From: Gemmatimonadaceae bacterium
Lineage (GTDB): Bacteria; Gemmatimonadota; Gemmatimonadetes; Gemmatimonadales; Gemmatimonadaceae
Direction: 5' to 3'
Length of the DNA: 64,000 bases
NCBI GenBank assembly: GCA_020846935.1
Contig: JADLCY010000012.1
Location: 1 to 64,000 of the forward strand
In this document: piece by piece, positions 14,437-22,895 of the stretch
Layout: the number at the start of each line of letters is the position of its first letter
Numbering within the stretch: the stretch's first letter is position 1
The notes under the pieces: generated by a model
What the model was told of the DNA's origin: nothing
What the model saw: only the letters and a program-made list of their open reading frames with translations
Database searches by the model: none
Position numbers and translations under genes: made by a program

Positions 14437-14860
14437 CGCCACCGCACTCGCGTCGGTGGCACCGCCCTGGCCCCTTCGGACACTCCCTCGTTCCGGAACG
14501 TTTGAATTCAGGGGCGTCCGAATCGCGCTCACGTGCGACAACGGAGCCGCCGCACTCGCGCCCGGCCCGACCGCCAAGGTCCTCTCACACCCTCTCGTTC
14601 CGGAACGTTTGAATTCAGGGGCGTCCGAATCGCGCTCACGTGCGACAACGGAACGGCCGCCTTCGCGCTGCCCGCACCGCCCAGGTCCGCTCACATTCGC
14701 TCGTCCCGAACGTTTGAACTCAGGGGCGTCCGAATCGCGCTCACGTGCGACAACGGAACGGCCGCCCTCGCGCCGGCCGCACCGCCCAGGTCCGCTCACA
14801 TTCGCTCGTCCCGAACGTTTGAACTCAGGGCGTCCGAATCGAGTCTACGAGCGACAACGG
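14437..14860. repeat. array of four ~105-bp repeats derived from the 3' end of the adjacent gene
   Basis: AACGTTTGAA recurs at 14497, 14604, 14709 and 14814 (spacings 107, 105, 105). Each is followed by TCAGG(G)GCGTCCGAATCG and a block ending GCGACAACGG. The copy at 14814 is the actual 3' end of the beta-lactamase-like gene: read on the minus strand it encodes VPLSLVDSIRTP plus stop. The other three read VPLSHVSAIRTP or close to it but have one extra C that removes the stop. Copies 1-2 share GAATTC and copies 3-4 share GAACTC, implying successive duplications. This fills the 434-bp gap before the DUF4097 gene. Confidence 0.88.
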
Positions 14861-15784
14861 TACGCGGACCCCGTACGCCGAGGCGCGCGCGAGGCGGCGG
14901 AAGTACTCCCAGCTGGCGTCCGCCACCTGTCGGATCGCGGCGAGCGCCTCCGCGGCGTCGCCGTATGTCACCATGACCGTGATCACGTAGGGGCGACCGG
15001 GGAGCGCCACCAGCGCCCATGCCGTCTCCACCCCTTCGACGCTCCCTCCCTTCCACGCGACCCTGACGTCGCCGGGGAGGCTGGCCGGGACCGAACCAGC
15101 CTTGGGAATCTCGAGGATGCGGCGAACCTCCTCGCACGACGCCCTTGAGATTGGCAGGTCGCATGCGTGCAGACGCTGCAGCAGCTGAGCGGCCTGCGCC
15201 GGAGTCGCCACGTTCTCGCGGCCCGCAGCGCTCTCCGCCGGCCGGATCATGCGACGCTGCAGCCGAATGCCGGGAAGCCTGAGCTGCTGCATCAGCGCGT
15301 TGACGCGCTCCATGCCCACGCGGTCGATCAGCAGGTTGGTCGCCGTGTTGTCGGAGAGCACGATCATCAGGACGGCGAGGTCACCCAGGGACAGCGCAGA
15401 CGCGCCGTCACCGAAGTACTGCGTGATGCCAGACCCGCCTGCGCGATCGGCGGCGCGCATCGCCACCCGCTCGTCGAGCCGGAGCGCGCCCGCGTCCCGC
15501 TGCCGGAACAGCTCCAGCAGGATCGACACCTTGATCGCGCTGCCCTGCGGGAACGTCGCCGAGTCGTTGACGCCGATGCGATCACCGGTGGTGAGGTCGA
15601 TCACGCCGATGCCTACGACGCCGTTGGTGCGCTGGGCGATCGCCGCAAGCTGCGCGCGGAACTTCTCCGTGAGCTCGGCGCGGGGAGCGGGTTGTGCCCA
15701 GGCGGCAGAGGAGAACAGCAGGGCGCAGACCGCGACCGCGCACCGGGCGCTGGATGGTCCCACGGAGACAGGAGGGAAGCGCAT
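14825..15784 (-). CDS. class A beta-lactamase-like serine hydrolase
   Basis: A 319-residue exported protein; signal peptide MRFPPVSV...SSAAWAQ. Active-site motifs of class A enzymes are present: SAIK (S-x-x-K nucleophile region), SDN in VLSDNTATN, and KGG in AWKGGSVEG replacing KTG. The omega-loop region holds PAESAAGREN, so a general-base Glu is plausible but the canonical ExxLN is not exact. It could hydrolyse beta-lactams or act on another amide. ATG 15784 starts the signal peptide better than an ATG nine codons upstream. The last 15 codons are the template for the downstream repeat array. Confidence 0.88.
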   Translation of the reverse strand: MRFPPVSVGPSSARCAVAVCALLFSSAAWAQPAPRAELTEKFRAQLAAIAQRTNGVVGIGVIDLTTGDRIGVNDSATFPQGSAIKVSILLELFRQRDAGALRLDERVAMRAADRAGGSGITQYFGDGASALSLGDLAVLMIVLSDNTATNLLIDRVGMERVNALMQQLRLPGIRLQRRMIRPAESAAGRENVATPAQAAQLLQRLHACDLPISRASCEEVRRILEIPKAGSVPASLPGDVRVAWKGGSVEGVETAWALVALPGRPYVITVMVTYGDAAEALAAIRQVADASWEYFRRLARASAYGVRVPLSLVDSIRTP

Positions 15785-15872
15785 GGCCGAACTTCGCGCG
15801 CAGCAGCGCACTCCGAAAGCCGCTGCGCGCGTCCGCTGGCTCAGGCCTCGAGGGTCGAGGCCTGATCGTGCC

Positions 15873-16849: not shown

Positions 16850-17923
16850 ATGACGTCCGCCCCTGACCGGACCGGTTCCCCGGAGCCGCGACGCGCGATG
16901 TTCACCGGGTTGCTGGTGGCAGCCGTGCTATTGCTCGGCATCTACGTGGGCAGCCGAAGGTTCAGGGACTTCGACGTGGCGCTCGTTCCCTACGCGGCCG
17001 CGTCGGTGTTCGCAGCATTCGGCATTGCGTACCGCTACTCGATGTGGCTCAGTCGGCCGCCCACGCGGTTGTACTGGCGCCGGGGGTGGCAGCTCTTCCT
17101 GACGCCGAGTCGGTTGCCCGGGAACGTCCTGCGGCTCGTGCGCCTGGCCTGGGACAACATCATCGCGCAGAAGTTCATCGAGCGGAGGTCGCCGCTGCGC
17201 TGGGCGGCTCACGCCGGCATCTTCTGGGGGTGCATCCTCGCCGCACTCGTCACGTTCCCGCTGTCGTTTGGCTGGATCCGTTTCGAAACCACGCGCGATT
17301 CGCAGGCGCTGTATGAGGCGTACGCCTTTGGCATCAGGGTCGCGGAGTTCCCGTTAGGTACCATCCGGGCCGAGCTGGCCTTCAACGTGCTCGTGATCTC
17401 CGCGTTCCTGGTGCTTGGCGGAGTCTTCCTCGCGCTCTGGCGGCGCATGCGTGACCGTGGCGCGCTCAGCGTGCAGCAATTCGCCAATGACCTGATGCCG
17501 CTGATCCTCCTCTTCGCGATCTCCACCACCGGGCTGCTGCTCACGGTGTCGGCGCGCCTGCTGCACGGGTTCCACTACGGATTCCTGGCGCAGTTCCACG
17601 CGGTCACGGTCATCTTCACGCTGCTCTATCTGCCATTCGGCAAGTTCTTTCACATCTTTCAGCGGCCTGCCCAATTGAGCCTCGACTTCTATAGAAAGGC
17701 CGGCGCCGAGCGAGGACCGGCCTCGTGCGCCCGCTGCGGGGAACCGTTCGCCACGCAGCTCCACATCGACGATCTCAAGCAGGTCGAGGCGGCGCTCGGC
17801 ATCGACTACGACATGGGCGCTGGCGTGCACTACCAGGACGTGTGCCCCGCGTGTCGTCGCAAGGGTCTGGCGCTCACGCAGGATCACCTCATCCGCGGCG
17901 CCAGGCACGAGCAGGCAGGCTAG
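16850..17923 (+). CDS. cytochrome b-type membrane subunit with C-terminal Cys4 domain
   Basis: A 357-residue protein with roughly seven membrane spans. Histidines in or beside the spans ([38 protein letters not shown]) suit b-haem ligation as in NarI/DsrM-like quinol dehydrogenases. After the last span comes a soluble tail with two CxxC pairs (CARC and CPAC about 50 residues apart), a rubredoxin- or zinc-ribbon-like site. It probably takes electrons from menaquinol or ubiquinol and hands them to the Fe-S and Rieske proteins encoded downstream. Five bases separate it from the molybdoenzyme gene. ATG 16850 is chosen as the first start before the first span. Confidence 0.78.
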
Positions 17924-17928
17924 ACCTC

Positions 17929-20151
17929 ATGGCGAAGCTCCCCGCCTCCATCGAGCACCTGGTGCACCAGTTCGGGCCGCACCGCAACGATGTGCCGCCG
18001 GGCGGCTGGACGGCGACCGCCACGCCGGACCGGCTGGTGAAGACGCATTGCTGTTTCTGCGGTCAGCAGTGCGGGTTGCAGCTCAAGGTTCGCGACAACC
18101 GGGTGATCGGATTCGAACCGTGGGAGGAGTTTCCGTTCAACAGGGGCAAGCTGTGCCCCAAGGGCGTCAAGCGATACCTCCAGAACGAACACCCGGACCG
18201 CCTCCTGCAACCGCTGGAGCGCTCCGAGGGGCAGGGCTTCCGTGAGAGTTCGTGGGACGCTGTCCTCGACCGCACGGCGTCCGAAATCCGCCGCGTCCAG
18301 GAGGCCTACGGCAAGGACGCGTTCGCCATCCTGTCGGGCTCGTCGATGACGAACGAGCGCGCGTATCTGATGGGGAAGTTTGCGCGCGTGGCGGTGCAAA
18401 CGGCGAACATCGACTACAACGGCCGCCTGTGCATGGTGTCGGCTGCCGCGGCCTCCAAGAAGATCCTCGGCATCGATCGCAGCGCCAACCCGTGGAGCGA
18501 CATCCGCGAGGCCAAGGCGATCCTCGTCGCCGGCTCCAACATCGGTGAGTGCTCGCCGATCACCACCGAGTACCTGTGGGACGCGCGCGAGCGCGGTGCG
18601 AAGATCATCCTGCTCGACCCGCGCATGACGCCGGTGGCGCGCTCGGTGGACCTGTACATCCCGGTGCGACCGGGTGGCGATATCGGCGTCTTCAACGGCA
18701 TGCTGCACGTGATGATCGAACGTGGGTGGATCGACCACGAGTTCATCGCGGCGCACACCACGGGTTGGGACGCCCTCGCCGAGTCGCTCGCGAAGTACAC
18801 GCCGGAGTACGCAGCACGGATTGCGGGGGTGCCGGCGTCGCTCATCGTGAAGGCCGCCGAGATCTGGGGGCCGGCGCCAACGAGCTTTCTCATGCACGCG
18901 CGCGGCATCGAGCACCATTCCAAGGGTGTCGAGAACTGCATGGCGGCGATCAACCTCGTCGTCGCCACCGGGCGTATCGGGCGCGAAGGGTGCGGATACG
19001 CCATGATCACGGGCCAGGGCAACGGCCAGGGCGGTCGCGAACAAGGGCAGAAGTCTGACCAGCTGCCTGGCGCACGCGACATCGAGAACCCGGAGCACCG
19101 GCGCCACATCGCCGGCATCTGGGGCGTGAGCGAAGCGTCCATTCCGCGCAAGGGACTCTCCTACATCGAGATCCTCGAGGCTGCACACGCCGGGAAGATT
19201 CGCGGGCTGCTGCTGCTCTGCACGAACCCGATGGTGTCCGCGCCGGACCGCAACTTCATGCGCGAGGCGTTCGAGCGGCTCGAGTTCTTTGCGGTCGCGG
19301 ACTTCTTCATGTCCGAGACCGCCCGCTATGCCGATGTCGTGCTGCCATGCGCCCTCATGGAAGAGGACGAGGGCACGACGACCAGCGTCGAAGGACGCGT
19401 GATCCATCACCGGCAAGCGGTCGATCCGCCGGCCAATGCCCGGCAGGACTGGAAGATCGTGAGCGGCCTGGCCAGTCGTCTGGGCGCCGCAGACAAGTTC
19501 GCGCACCAGTCAGCGCGCGAGATCTTTGACGAACTGCGCGTCGCCTCACGAGGCGGGGTCGCCGACTACTACGGCATTACCTGGGAGCGAATCGACGAAC
19601 AGTTCGGCGTGTTCTGGCCGTGCCCCTCGGCCGACCATCCGGGGACACCGCGTCTCTACGAAGGGGGGCGCTTTGGGCATGCCGACGGCAAGGCGCACCT
19701 TCAGGTCGTCGAGTGGCGGCCACAGCGCGAGGAACCGGACGCCGAGTATCCCGTGATCCTCACCACGGGACGCGTGGTGTCGCATTTCCTGTCGGGGACG
19801 CAGACACGCCGCATCGGTCCGCTCGTCGATCAGTGCCCGCAGCCGTTCTGCGAGATGCATCCGCGACTCGCCGAGACGCTTGGTGTGAAGGACGGCGATA
19901 TCGTGCGGGTGGAGAGTCGTCGAGGGTCGCTCGTCGTGCGGGCGTCGGTCGTGCACACCATCAGGCCCGACACGGTGTTCGTGCCATACCACTGGCCGCT
20001 GGACCGCGCCGCCAACGCCTGCACGGTACGCGCGCTCGATCCTGTGTCGCGCATCCCGGAGTACAAGGTGTGCGCCGCTCGAGTGAAAAAGCTCGACGCG
20101 GCCGATGACGCGACACACGCGCTCACGCCCGAGGCCGGGGGGCTGCGATGA
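17929..20151 (+). CDS. NarB/NasC-like molybdopterin oxidoreductase, probable nitrate reductase
   Basis: A 740-residue cytoplasmic Mo-bisMGD enzyme; no Tat leader. An N-terminal [4Fe-4S] site is formed by C41 or C42, C44, C48 and C76 (CCFCGQQC ... LCPKG). The Mo ligand is a cysteine within [10 protein letters not shown], as in NarB/NapA and unlike selenocysteine formate dehydrogenases. [12 protein letters not shown] resembles the GGRE segment of assimilatory nitrate reductases. The C-terminal domain (from about 600) is the molybdopterin-dinucleotide-binding fold. Most likely it reduces nitrate to nitrite with electrons from its membrane and Fe-S partners. A formate or other oxyanion substrate is not excluded. 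Confidence 0.85.
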
Positions 20152-20765
20152 CCGAATACGCGATGGTGCTCGACTACTCGCGCTGCATCGGCTGTCAGGC
20201 GTGCGTTCAGGCGTGCGGCGAATGCGACACGCATCGCGGACGATCGATGATACACCTGGAGACCATTCGGCGGCGCGACAGCGTGCAGACGGCGCCCCAG
20301 GTGTGCATGCACTGCGAGAATCCCGTCTGCGCCCGTGTGTGTCCGGCCGACGCGATCAAGAAGACGCCGGACGGCGTGGTGCAGAGTTCGCTCAAGCCGC
20401 GGTGCATCGGGTGCTCGAACTGCGTCATGGCCTGCCCGTTCGGCGTACCCAAGTACTTCGCCGAGATCGACCAGATGATGAAATGCGATCTGTGTTACGA
20501 TCGCACGAGTGTCGGGCGCAAGCCGATGTGCGCCACCGTGTGCCCATCCCAGGCCATCACGTTCGCGCCGATCGACGAGGTGCAACGGAGCCGGCACGGG
20601 ACGCCCGTCAACCAATTCCGCTTTGGGCGCGAAGTCGTGCGCACGAAGGTCTTTGTGATGGTGCCCGAAGGATCCTCGGCACTGGATGTGGGGCTCGTTC
20701 CCCTGGAGCGCAGGCACGCGGCGCCGCCGGATGATGTCGCCGCGCTACTCGAGGACATGCACTGA
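20148..20765 (+). CDS. 4x[4Fe-4S] ferredoxin-type electron-transfer subunit
   Basis: A 205-residue DmsB/NrfC-like protein with sixteen cysteines in four groups: [37 protein letters not shown] and CDLC...CATVCP. It should hold four [4Fe-4S] clusters and wire the membrane subunit to the molybdoenzyme. There is no signal peptide, consistent with a cytoplasmic complex. Its ATG overlaps the stop of the molybdoenzyme gene and its stop overlaps the Rieske ATG, showing translational coupling. Confidence 0.93.
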
Positions 20766-21277
20766 TGGACAGCGAAAAGAAGGAGACGCCCGCCGTTCCG
20801 CGCTGGCGCGAGGACTTCCCGATCGGCTGGGAGCGCGATCACTACATCACGCGCCGTGAGTTGGCAAAGTTCCTCACATTGGGATCGGCGCTGCTCGCGG
20901 CCATGACAGGCGCGGTCGCCGTCATCGGCCGGTGGTTCTACCGGGCCCGTGTCGAAGGGCCGGGTCAGTTGATCACGAAGTCTTCGGCAGTGCCGGCCGG
21001 CGGTTCAGTGCTCTTCCGGTATCCCACCGCAGATGATCCGTGCATCCTGCTGCGCGACACGGACGGAACGCTTCGCGCCTACTCGCAGGTATGCACTCAC
21101 CTGTCGTGCGCGGTGGTGCATCGACCGGAAGAGGGCAGCCTGTTCTGCCCGTGCCACCACGGATGGTTCGATGCAACGACCGGCGCTCCGACCGGTGGCC
21201 CTCCGACCCGCCCGCTGCCACGCATTCGCCTGGAGATGTCGGGCGATGAGGTACATGCCGTTGGGAGGGACGTGTAA
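20765..21277 (+). CDS. bc1-type Rieske [2Fe-2S] protein
   Basis: A 170-residue protein with one membrane anchor at about residues 37-60 (LTLGSALLAAMTGAVAVIG), preceded by an ITRRELAKF segment. The cluster motifs are CTHLSC and CPCHHG, giving two Cys and two His ligands plus the extra Cys pair of bc1-type Rieske proteins; Gly is replaced by Ser in the first box. It resembles the QcrA Rieske subunit of menaquinol-cytochrome c reductases but sits inside a molybdoenzyme operon with no cytochrome c gene, so it is probably part of the same electron path. Confidence 0.92.
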   Translation: MDSEKKETPAVPRWREDFPIGWERDHYITRRELAKFLTLGSALLAAMTGAVAVIGRWFYRARVEGPGQLITKSSAVPAGGSVLFRYPTADDPCILLRDTDGTLRAYSQVCTHLSCAVVHRPEEGSLFCPCHHGWFDATTGAPTGGPPTRPLPRIRLEMSGDEVHAVGRDV

Positions 21278-21278
21278 C

Positions 21279-21524
21279 ATGGGCACCCCTCGGCAGGGAC
21301 TTCCGCTCTTTACGGCGATGTGCGTGCTGATCGGCACCCTGGTCGTCATTCAGCTGTGGCTGCTGGCCGCCGCGATCGACGCAACCCTGAGCGATCAGCA
21401 GGCGGTCCTGCTGCCGGCGACGCTGGCGTCGGTCGTGCTGCTCGGAATCAACGGGGCTCTCCTGCTGTACGCGCTCGACTTTGATCGCAGGCTGAGCGGG
21501 CGTGCGCCGCATGAGCGCGACTGA
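21279..21524 (+). CDS. small two-span membrane protein (DUF6755-like)
   Basis: An 81-residue protein with two hydrophobic helices, about 10-33 (FTAMCVLIGTLVVIQLWLLA) and 44-66, ending in a short charged tail. Size and sequence resemble the DUF6755 family, which I recall next to Rieske and molybdopterin genes; that assignment is from memory. It begins one base after the Rieske stop and overlaps the HPP gene by 14 bp. It is probably an accessory subunit of the membrane complex. Confidence 0.75.
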   Translation: MGTPRQGLPLFTAMCVLIGTLVVIQLWLLAAAIDATLSDQQAVLLPATLASVVLLGINGALLLYALDFDRRLSGRAPHERD

Positions 21525-22164
21525 ACCACCCCGCGAACGCGGGCCGCTCGATGTACTCGAGCCCGACGTCGTCCGCGGCATCGTCAGGCACGTGCGGCTC
21601 GCGCGACTGCTCGGCCGTTTTCCCGAGCGTCCCGTGTGGGCCGCATTCATGTTCATCAACGGCTTCGTCACCATCGCGCTCCTGGCCGGCGTGGCGATGG
21701 TGACGGGTACGCCGTTTGTTTTTCCCTCGCTTGGCCCCACGGCGTTCCTGTTCTTCTTCACGCCGAATGCACCGACAGCGAGTCCGCGGCACACGATCAT
21801 CGGACACGCCATCGGCATCGTGTGTGGATACGGGGCGCTCGTGTTGTTCGGGCTGGCGGATGCCGGGCCGGCCATGTCGACCGGCGTTGACCTGCCTCGC
21901 GTCGGCGCTGCGGCGCTCTCGCTGGGTGCGACTGGCGCCCTGATGATTCTGTTCAGGGCGGCGCATCCGCCGGCGGGTGCGACGACGCTCATCATTTCCC
22001 TCGGCGTCGTGTCGAAGCCTGCGCACCTGGTCGTGATCGAGGTCGCGGTCGCACTCCTGACGCTGCAGGCAATCGCAATCAACCGCATGGCGGGGCTGCC
22101 GTACCCTCTGTGGGCGCGACGACAATCGCCGGGCGACGTTCCGAGCGCGCGCAGCCCGGGATGA
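21511..22164 (+). CDS. HPP-family membrane protein, candidate nitrite transporter
   Basis: A 217-residue protein with four to five membrane spans and the family signature AHPPAGATTLI near residue 153. Plant and cyanobacterial HPP proteins have been linked to nitrite transport across membranes. Its place inside a nitrate-reductase-like operon supports export or uptake of nitrite here, though the substrate is an inference. ATG 21511 lies inside the end of the preceding gene, and its stop overlaps the next ATG. Confidence 0.88.
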   Translation: MSATEPPRERGPLDVLEPDVVRGIVRHVRLARLLGRFPERPVWAAFMFINGFVTIALLAGVAMVTGTPFVFPSLGPTAFLFFFTPNAPTASPRHTIIGHAIGIVCGYGALVLFGLADAGPAMSTGVDLPRVGAAALSLGATGALMILFRAAHPPAGATTLIISLGVVSKPAHLVVIEVAVALLTLQAIAINRMAGLPYPLWARRQSPGDVPSARSPG

Positions 22165-22895
22165 AGGCGGTGCTCGACGGAGACGTCCTTCGCGCGTTCA
22201 TGGGACGGTTCGCCGGCTACGGGAATCCCGCTGCTCCGCTGTGGTTCGTTGGCATGGAAGAAGGGAGCGGTCAGGGCATCGCCGAACTCTCGCGCCGCGT
22301 GCTTGCCTGGGACGCGCGCGGTCGAAGGGTGCTGGAGGACCTGCCGTCATACCACCACGCGATCGGGCTGCCTCGACACTTCGTTCCGCCCTTTCCTCTC
22401 CAGCGCACGTGGGCGCCGCTGCTGCGCATCCTCATGGCGTGGCGCGGAGCAGCCGCGACGCTTGCCGATCTTCGACGCGCTCAGACAAGCGAGCTGGGAA
22501 CGCCACACGGTGACTCGGCACTCGTTGAGCTGCTGCCGCTACCGGCGCCAGGGCTCGCCCACTGGCCATACGGTGCGCTCGCGTCGCAGCTGCCGGAACT
22601 CGCCGACCGTGGCACGTACGCCGAGGCGCTGCGTGGCCCACGCATCACGCTGCTGCGTGCGCTGCTGATGCAGACGTCGGCGCGTGTGGTGGTGTGTTAC
22701 GGATTGGGCTACACCGCGGACTGGTCGTGCCTTGTGGGGACGACCCTGCAGGCGCGCACGACCGAAGGGCAGCGCTGGCTCCATGCGTGCAGGGAATCCA
22801 CACACTTCGCGATCGTACCGCATCCGGTAGCCCGCGGAACGCCCCAGCGATTCTGGGCCAGCCTCGGCGATGCGCTCCGCCAGAGCGTCGGATGA
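22161..22895 (+). CDS. uncharacterised protein, possibly uracil-DNA-glycosylase fold
   Basis: A 244-residue soluble protein, the last gene of the operon, whose ATG overlaps the HPP stop. Near the N-terminus LWFVGMEEGSG resembles the GExPG motif A of uracil-DNA glycosylases, and IVPHPVARG near the C-terminus resembles motif B (HPS). The spacing and the central region (ARVVVCYGLGY) fit that superfamily, but the catalytic residues are not the classical ones. It may be a divergent glycosylase-fold protein with another role. Why it is coupled to redox genes is unknown. Confidence 0.6.
   Translation: MKAVLDGDVLRAFMGRFAGYGNPAAPLWFVGMEEGSGQGIAELSRRVLAWDARGRRVLEDLPSYHHAIGLPRHFVPPFPLQRTWAPLLRILMAWRGAAATLADLRRAQTSELGTPHGDSALVELLPLPAPGLAHWPYGALASQLPELADRGTYAEALRGPRITLLRALLMQTSARVVVCYGLGYTADWSCLVGTTLQARTTEGQRWLHACRESTHFAIVPHPVARGTPQRFWASLGDALRQSVG

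Follow-up and report, generated by a model that had tools for sequence, protein, structure and literature searches.

A conserved five-gene module around a NasC-type molybdoenzyme, probably a membrane-bound and quinol-linked nitrate reductase

Positions 16850-22895 of a 64,000-nucleotide stretch of Gemmatimonadaceae DNA (contig JADLCY010000012.1; the whole stretch is termed the window) carry seven tightly packed genes, all on the + strand. Five of these, encoding a cytochrome b, a molybdenum (Mo) enzyme, an iron-sulfur (Fe-S) protein of the 4x[4Fe-4S] kind, a Rieske protein and a DUF6755 protein, form a conserved module that is found in about 12 phyla. The module probably specifies a membrane-bound, quinol-linked nitrate reductase of the Nas type whose catalytic subunit lies in the cytoplasm. 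Sequence and comparison supply the gene set, its conservation, a nitrate-type active site, the clade of the Mo enzyme, a neighbourhood of nitrate/nitrite genes and a predicted NarI-like fold of the cytochrome b. Literature searches by name, covering open-access papers, found no description of the module, which as far as the searched open literature shows is a widespread, apparently undescribed membrane variant of the Nas-type nitrate reductase. The seven genes are (sizes in amino acids, aa):

16850..17923, + strand: NarI-like membrane cytochrome b, 357 aa, six predicted transmembrane (TM) helices
17929..20151, + strand: molybdenum-bis(pyranopterin guanine dinucleotide) (Mo-bisPGD) catalytic subunit, NasC type, 740 aa; 5-bp gap after the cytochrome b gene
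20148..20765, + strand: ferredoxin-like subunit with about four [4Fe-4S] clusters, DmsB/HybA/NrfC type, 205 aa; 4-bp overlap with the Mo-enzyme gene
20765..21277, + strand: Rieske [2Fe-2S] protein with signal anchor of the twin-arginine translocation (Tat) type, 170 aa, PF00355; 1-bp overlap with the Fe-S gene
21279..21524, + strand: DUF6755 protein, predicted small membrane subunit, 81 aa, two TM helices; 1-bp gap
21511..22164, + strand: HPP-family membrane protein, predicted nitrite/nitrate transporter, 217 aa, PF04982; 14-bp overlap
22161..22895, + strand: 244-aa protein; 4-bp overlap with the HPP gene, spanning the HPP stop codon

By the coordinates of the open reading frames (ORFs) the successive junctions are +5, -4, -1, +1, -14 and -4 bp, in agreement with an earlier note on this DNA that had described seven compact genes with 5-bp, 1-bp or overlapping junctions. 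The same note took the seven genes as one operon unit; the five module genes are indeed conserved jointly, whereas HPP is replaceable and the last gene, there called "UDG-like", is probably incidental.

All prokaryote species were scanned for relatives of the Mo enzyme; at least 491 are encoded, and the best 80 loci were analysed. In counts over 84 loci, which take in up to two NasC-type comparison loci and use profiles built from the window proteins, the Mo-enzyme clade is accompanied by the cytochrome b gene at 79, the Fe-S gene at 78, the Rieske gene at 75, the DUF6755 gene at 59 and an HPP gene at 11. The clustering of the first four by the Mo enzyme is far from chance. A co-occurrence of Rieske, NarB-like and HPP genes, which the earlier note had proposed to look for, is borne out for the Rieske gene and holds for HPP at the 11 loci only. 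Gene order (cytochrome b, Mo enzyme, Fe-S, Rieske, DUF6755) is nearly invariant, being rearranged in Armatimonadota. Named hosts belong to the Acidobacteriota, Myxococcota, Verrucomicrobiota, Armatimonadota, Planctomycetota, Binatota, Omnitrophota, Hydrogenedentota, Actinomycetota and Bdellovibrionota, together with one metagenome-assembled genome of the Pseudomonadota. The expectation that similar sets recur in Planctomycetes and Acidobacteria without a studied function is supported, both groups carrying the module, and the idea of a functional unit survives the examination of neighbour conservation in other genomes, since the five genes are kept jointly across phyla. The module is also found on Deinococcus plasmids, where it is followed by a major facilitator superfamily (MFS) transporter or an annotated nitrate/nitrite transporter; in plasmid records (NZ_CP031163.1, NZ_CP034186.1) the module cytochrome b is itself annotated "MFS transporter", seemingly a misannotation.

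A reciprocal test that started from DUF6755 (PF20540) in 297 Acidobacteriota genomes found the module Rieske gene adjoining in 30 of the 30 loci retrieved. In the phylum to which the window belongs the module is very rare. Of 298 genomes, only two have DUF6755 above its cut-off, the window genome and one of the same genus, and close Mo-enzyme relatives (60% and above) are likewise confined to this pair.

The Mo enzyme belongs to the MopB family (PF00384/PF01568/PF04879), with an N-terminal cluster motif CCFCGQQCG and the Mo-ligating Cys in RLCMVSA. It fails to reach the cut-offs of the NarG model (66.6 bits vs 1084) and of NapA (278-284 vs 930, with an N-terminus that lacks a signal peptide). 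The two arsenite oxidase models (TIGR02693, TIGR02694) likewise stay below their cut-offs, at 153 vs 359 bits for the large subunit and 40.6 vs 95.7 for the small one. In all module enzymes aligned the Mo-Cys stands in RLCM(V/A)(S/A) or a close variant, accompanied by GQ(G/A)NGQG(G/A)RE, which is the Nas/Nap pattern. A maximum likelihood tree, made by quick search and without cyanobacterial NarB, places the 84 module enzymes in a single clade (Shimodaira-Hasegawa-like approximate likelihood ratio, SH-aLRT, 100) that joins a NasC-type sister group (SH-aLRT 94) whose members adjoin NirB; formate dehydrogenases fall apart from the module clade. The NapA branch is long in this tree, and the exact root in this region is uncertain. 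Placement in a clade of known non-nitrate enzymes was accordingly not found, and the reasoning that a Cys ligand together with GGRE favours nitrate stands, both motifs being confirmed and the tree and neighbours agreeing. Nitrate is thus well supported as the likely substrate by the active-site motifs, the tree position and the nitrate/nitrite gene neighbourhood, and the broader proposal, in which a NasC-like Mo enzyme of nitrate type is coupled to a Rieske protein and a cytochrome b, finds support in motifs, tree and neighbour conservation.

The cytochrome b matches no Pfam family and shows a weak QmoC/TcuB match in NCBIfam. Its structure and that of the Rieske protein were predicted with AlphaFold2 from homologue alignments free of plasmid-derived proteins. 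For the cytochrome b model (predicted local distance difference test, pLDDT, 93.4) the best believable Foldseek match is EtfD, followed by NarI, at modest TM-scores; against NarI chains the probability is 0.93-0.99 and the TM-score up to 0.48, with E-values above 0.1. A cytochrome b of the bc1 kind is rejected: there is no Pfam cytochrome b match and no bc1 fold in the best 50 Foldseek matches, the predicted fold resembling NarI/EtfD instead. His121, His250 and His268 are invariant in every homologue that covers them (79 homologues). NarI has four haem ligands, including the pair His187/His205, and the 18-residue spacing of His250 and His268 resembles that pair. The Cys4 tail described earlier is present (C293, C296, C332, C335); three of its four Cys are lost jointly in nine homologues, mostly of Armatimonadota, which makes an obligatory role of the tail as electron carrier unlikely. 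By the positive-inside rule, Lys/Arg counts over the 79 homologues put loop 64-114, loop 199-212 and the Cys4 tail on the inner side.

The Fe-S protein matches PF13247 and related families as well as DmsB-type NCBIfam models, and has 17 Cys in most homologues. Neither it nor the Mo enzyme shows a signal peptide or a TM helix. The Rieske protein, in contrast, has the Tat motif [ST]RRx[FML]xK, with RR in 73 of 74 homologues, and on this basis its domain should lie outside the membrane. Its cluster ligands (CTHLxC and CPCHxGxF) are kept in nearly all of the 74. In bc1 Rieske proteins a Ser and a Tyr that hydrogen-bond to the cluster raise the potential; both are absent here, Gly/Ala and Phe standing in their places in all 73 readable sequences, suggesting a module Rieske of lower potential. 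The nearest solved structure to its model is AioB. The DUF6755 protein (PF20540, 47.3 bits vs a cut-off of 27) has two TM helices by hydropathy.

Since the five genes are conserved jointly and all 30 DUF6755 loci agree reciprocally, a complex of their products is probable, and its coupling to quinol is probable as well. The Mo enzyme and its four-cluster partner would work on the cytoplasmic face, reducing nitrate to nitrite, and would be docked on the NarI-like cytochrome b; this side is favoured because both lack signal peptide and TM helix, because the Arg/Lys-rich loops and tail of the cytochrome b appear to be inside, and because of the predicted NarI/EtfD-like fold. Quinol, the presumed donor, would be oxidised towards the outer face, with protons released outside, and the haem or haems of the cytochrome b would pass the electrons inward. 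The remainder of the quinol-oxidising side may be made up by the Tat-inserted Rieske protein and the DUF6755 protein with its two helices. HPP, or elsewhere NarK or SLAC1/TDT, would carry nitrate or nitrite across the membrane. A bolder version, advanced tentatively and at somewhat less than even weight, is that a Nas-type enzyme has been built permanently into a quinol-oxidising complex with a Tat-inserted Rieske of low-potential type, such that nitrate taken up in air is reduced by respiratory electrons and energy is conserved. If true, this would blur the boundary between assimilatory and respiratory nitrate reduction and constitute a third way of driving it, and would give DUF6755 and HPP their first defined roles in the nitrate metabolism of soil bacteria.

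A number of points weigh against a membrane-bound, inward-facing Nas-type enzyme. It is read from sequence and structure models. It is difficult to see how a Rieske protein in the periplasm would be linked to a Mo enzyme in the cytoplasm, or to which acceptor it would pass its electrons. The window enzyme scores 804.6 bits with the NasC model NF047855, below the cut-off of 1100 (other module members 810 and 832, Paenibacillus NasC 1165). Some Foldseek matches of the cytochrome b at similar E-value are plainly spurious, and its three invariant His, as against four haem ligands in NarI, leave the haem number uncertain. The window genome also has NarG and NarH above cut-offs (contig C5, about 40.3-45.6 kb; L173:3763-9581) and the module is therefore not its only nitrate reductase; NarI and NarJ were not recognised by NCBIfam among the few narGH neighbours scanned. 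A local nitrite reductase is not upheld for this genome: its only NIR_SIR gene scores as a sulfite reductase and lies beside a CysH-like gene, its NrfA-like match is a multihaem TPR protein below cut-off, and its NirK-model matches are far below cut-off.

The main rival, judged unlikely, is an outward-facing complex in which the Mo and Fe-S proteins are exported through Tat by hitch-hiking on the twin-Arg signal of the Rieske protein, the latter touching the Mo enzyme directly and HPP or NarK importing the nitrite made outside. Arsenite oxidase AioA is believed to hitch-hike with AioB in this way; the Tat consensus (RR in 73 of 74) and the nearest solved fold, AioB, itself the Rieske subunit of a Mo enzyme, fit such an arrangement, as does the implication of HPP proteins in nitrite transport reported through PMC7438415. 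However, the Cys4 tail and Arg-rich loops of the cytochrome b are predicted to be cytoplasmic, which would leave the Fe-S/Mo unit across the membrane from the surface on which it docks; the recurrent neighbour families contained no recognisable chaperone of the TorD/NapD type, and the Mo enzyme is most closely related to NasC types, which are cytoplasmic. Slightly less credible again is quinol bifurcation, in which one quinol electron leaves through the Rieske protein, as it would in a bc complex, for a cytochrome c or oxidase in the periplasm and the other travels through the cytochrome b to nitrate. The co-occurrence of Rieske and cytochrome b with an inward Fe-S/Mo branch invites this scheme, but the cytochrome b is not bc1-like in sequence or fold, no conserved cytochrome c gene is present among the recurrent neighbour families examined, a Rieske without the potential-raising Ser and Tyr may be a weak oxidant, and a low-potential electron is not needed for nitrate.

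It is improbable that the Mo enzyme acts on another substrate (formate, chlorate, selenate or arsenite), its nitrate-like motifs being ancestral. Sequence alone cannot give a substrate with certainty, and the formate dehydrogenase alpha model TIGR01591 gives 626 bits, near its cut-off of 666 without reaching it, with formate dehydrogenases as the best PDB matches. A formate dehydrogenase identity is nevertheless rejected by the active-site motifs and the tree: in the same alignment formate dehydrogenases carry a His after the Cys or Sec, together with GQNNVQGxxD, whereas the window enzyme has Met for the His; nitrate/nitrite transporters and nitrite reductases moreover adjoin the module in several phyla. 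Least probable by a small step is a conventional soluble NasC that receives its electrons from NADH or ferredoxin, with cytochrome b, Rieske and DUF6755 as mere neighbours, as might be thought from the closest relatives (soluble NasC beside NirB) and from NirB adjacent at some module loci; five genes conserved over about 12 phyla, even in rearranged orders, and the 30/30 DUF6755 result speak against it, and no soluble NasC is known to have a four-cluster Fe-S subunit.

The preferred Nas-type membrane complex has partial counterparts among known systems. The earlier statement that no classical nitrate reductase has a Rieske subunit was too strong (PMC3475470, PMC7754194): in Paracoccus the Rieske-type NasG/NirD is thought to connect NasB and NasC (PMC3475470), and haloarchaea have genes for the Rieske protein NarB and the cytochrome b NarC next to narGH, the two being proposed to act as quinol dehydrogenase (PMC7754194). 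NasC itself (of Bacillus, Paenibacillus and actinobacteria, with NirB and NirD/NasG) is sister to the module clade and shares its Mo-Cys and GGRE motifs, has NarK and NirB neighbours like the module, and in Paracoccus is likewise served by a Rieske-type protein (PMC3475470). It differs in that the module enzyme has an N-terminal CCFCG motif and falls under the NasC cut-off, and in that membrane cytochrome b, 4x[4Fe-4S] protein, anchored Rieske and DUF6755 stand in place of the NirB flavoprotein. With NarGHI the module shares a catalytic subunit, a four-cluster subunit and a cytochrome b predicted to be NarI-like, probably facing inward; unlike NarG its catalytic subunit carries a motif with Cys as ligand, a Rieske protein and DUF6755 are additional, and the cytochrome b is extended by a Cys4 domain, its invariant His numbering three. 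Haloarchaeal pNar likewise groups its nitrate reductase genes with those for a cytochrome b and for a Rieske protein on the outer side (PMC7754194), but its catalytic subunit belongs to the NarG type and is turned outward, its NarC resembles bc cytochromes, has two haems and is not a NarI homologue, and NarB did not co-purify. Arsenite oxidase AioAB is another pairing of a Rieske subunit with a Mo enzyme from the same superfamily, and AioB is the nearest solved fold to the module Rieske; the module enzyme, unlike AioA, uses Cys as ligand, the module adds cytochrome b and Fe-S subunits, and Aio is periplasmic.

Neighbours at other module loci include NarK, NirA, NirB, YtfE/RIC, NnrS, SLAC1/TDT and Rrf2 regulators, with a CysJ-like flavoprotein beside NirA in Verrucomicrobiota; NirA/NirB-type genes lie within 8 kb of the module at 18 loci. 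Within 2.5 kb of the module, at 82 loci, there are 26 with NarK, 11 with HPP and 7 with SLAC1/TDT, and none with two together, where random placement would give about 6.6 co-occurrences, a probability that is only indicative since the loci are related. HPP, NarK and SLAC1/TDT are thus alternative transporters in one slot. At three distinct places in the tree the module has HPP as its neighbour (the window group, Actinomycetota and Holophagaceae); the inclusion of HPP in the operon, as first described, is right for the window, where it is present and overlapping, and elsewhere it is an optional neighbour. The window protein is a clear member of its family (PF04982, 87.3 bits vs a cut-off of 27.2; signature AAHPPAG), and HPP proteins act in nitrite transport in cyanobacteria and chloroplasts, according to Maeda et al. 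2014 as cited in PMC7438415. The mutual replacement with NarK and SLAC1/TDT is an evolutionary argument for nitrite/nitrate transport by bacterial HPP.

Two observations concern the surroundings of particular loci. In Acidobacteriaceae several conserved clusters of opposite-strand ORFs upstream of the module (L058:8422-8832, L055:3511-3930 and others) are for the most part antisense to the NarK gene and have the look of shadow ORFs. In Geothrix the module is about 10 kb from narG; a 970-aa fused QrcB/QrcC-like protein, i.e. like alternative complex III, is encoded downstream of the module (L096:17502-20414, - strand, and Geothrix relatives), apparently between it and narG.

The module appears to have moved between lineages. 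The window Mo enzyme falls among Acidobacteriota and Myxococcota sequences, and the copy in the same-genus genome (G155; L042, 3122-8066, - strand), which has a SLAC1/TDT transporter where the window has HPP, groups with Pirellula and Bacteriovoracaceae. Common inheritance of the two is rejected (approximately unbiased, AU, test, p about 6e-8), and the same-genus copy is an independent acquisition. The separate branches within one genus, the AU rejection and the plasmid copies indicate repeated horizontal transfer of the entire module.

The module is often the only recognisable nitrate reductase in its bacteria: of 19 sampled module genomes, 8 have NarG and 2 NapA, and neither was found in 11. 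A strong NrfA is present in 8 module genomes and a NIR_SIR gene in 9 of 15. Surveys with NarG/NapA marker genes would call such genomes (11 of 19) unable to reduce nitrate, and carriers include soil Acidobacteriota, Verrucomicrobiota and Armatimonadota among others. Published phenotypes would fit: acidobacterial relatives form nitrite from nitrate, in some cases in air and in others with no dissimilatory reductase recognised (PMC5900883, PMC11354219, PMC3910553); e.g. Granulicella mallensis and strain KBS 96 form nitrite from nitrate with no dissimilatory reductase found and only a putative nasA (PMC5900883), and Edaphobacter paludis carries out this reduction in air (PMC11354219). For acidobacterial nitrate reduction so far ascribed to "nasA" alone the module is a specific candidate, and DUF6755 gains a context from it.

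The 244-aa product of the last gene has no Pfam or NCBIfam match and no PDB match better than E = 1, and a homologue is present at 1 of the 84 loci, i.e. the window itself. The "UDG-like" identity is not upheld, and the gene is rejected as a part of the system; having no family match and no homologue at any other locus, the protein is probably a bystander. On the other side of the gene set, at window positions 14480-14864, there is a tandem array with a period of 105 bp, 3.7 copies and 90% matches, which adjoins a class A beta-lactamase-like gene (14825-15811, - strand).

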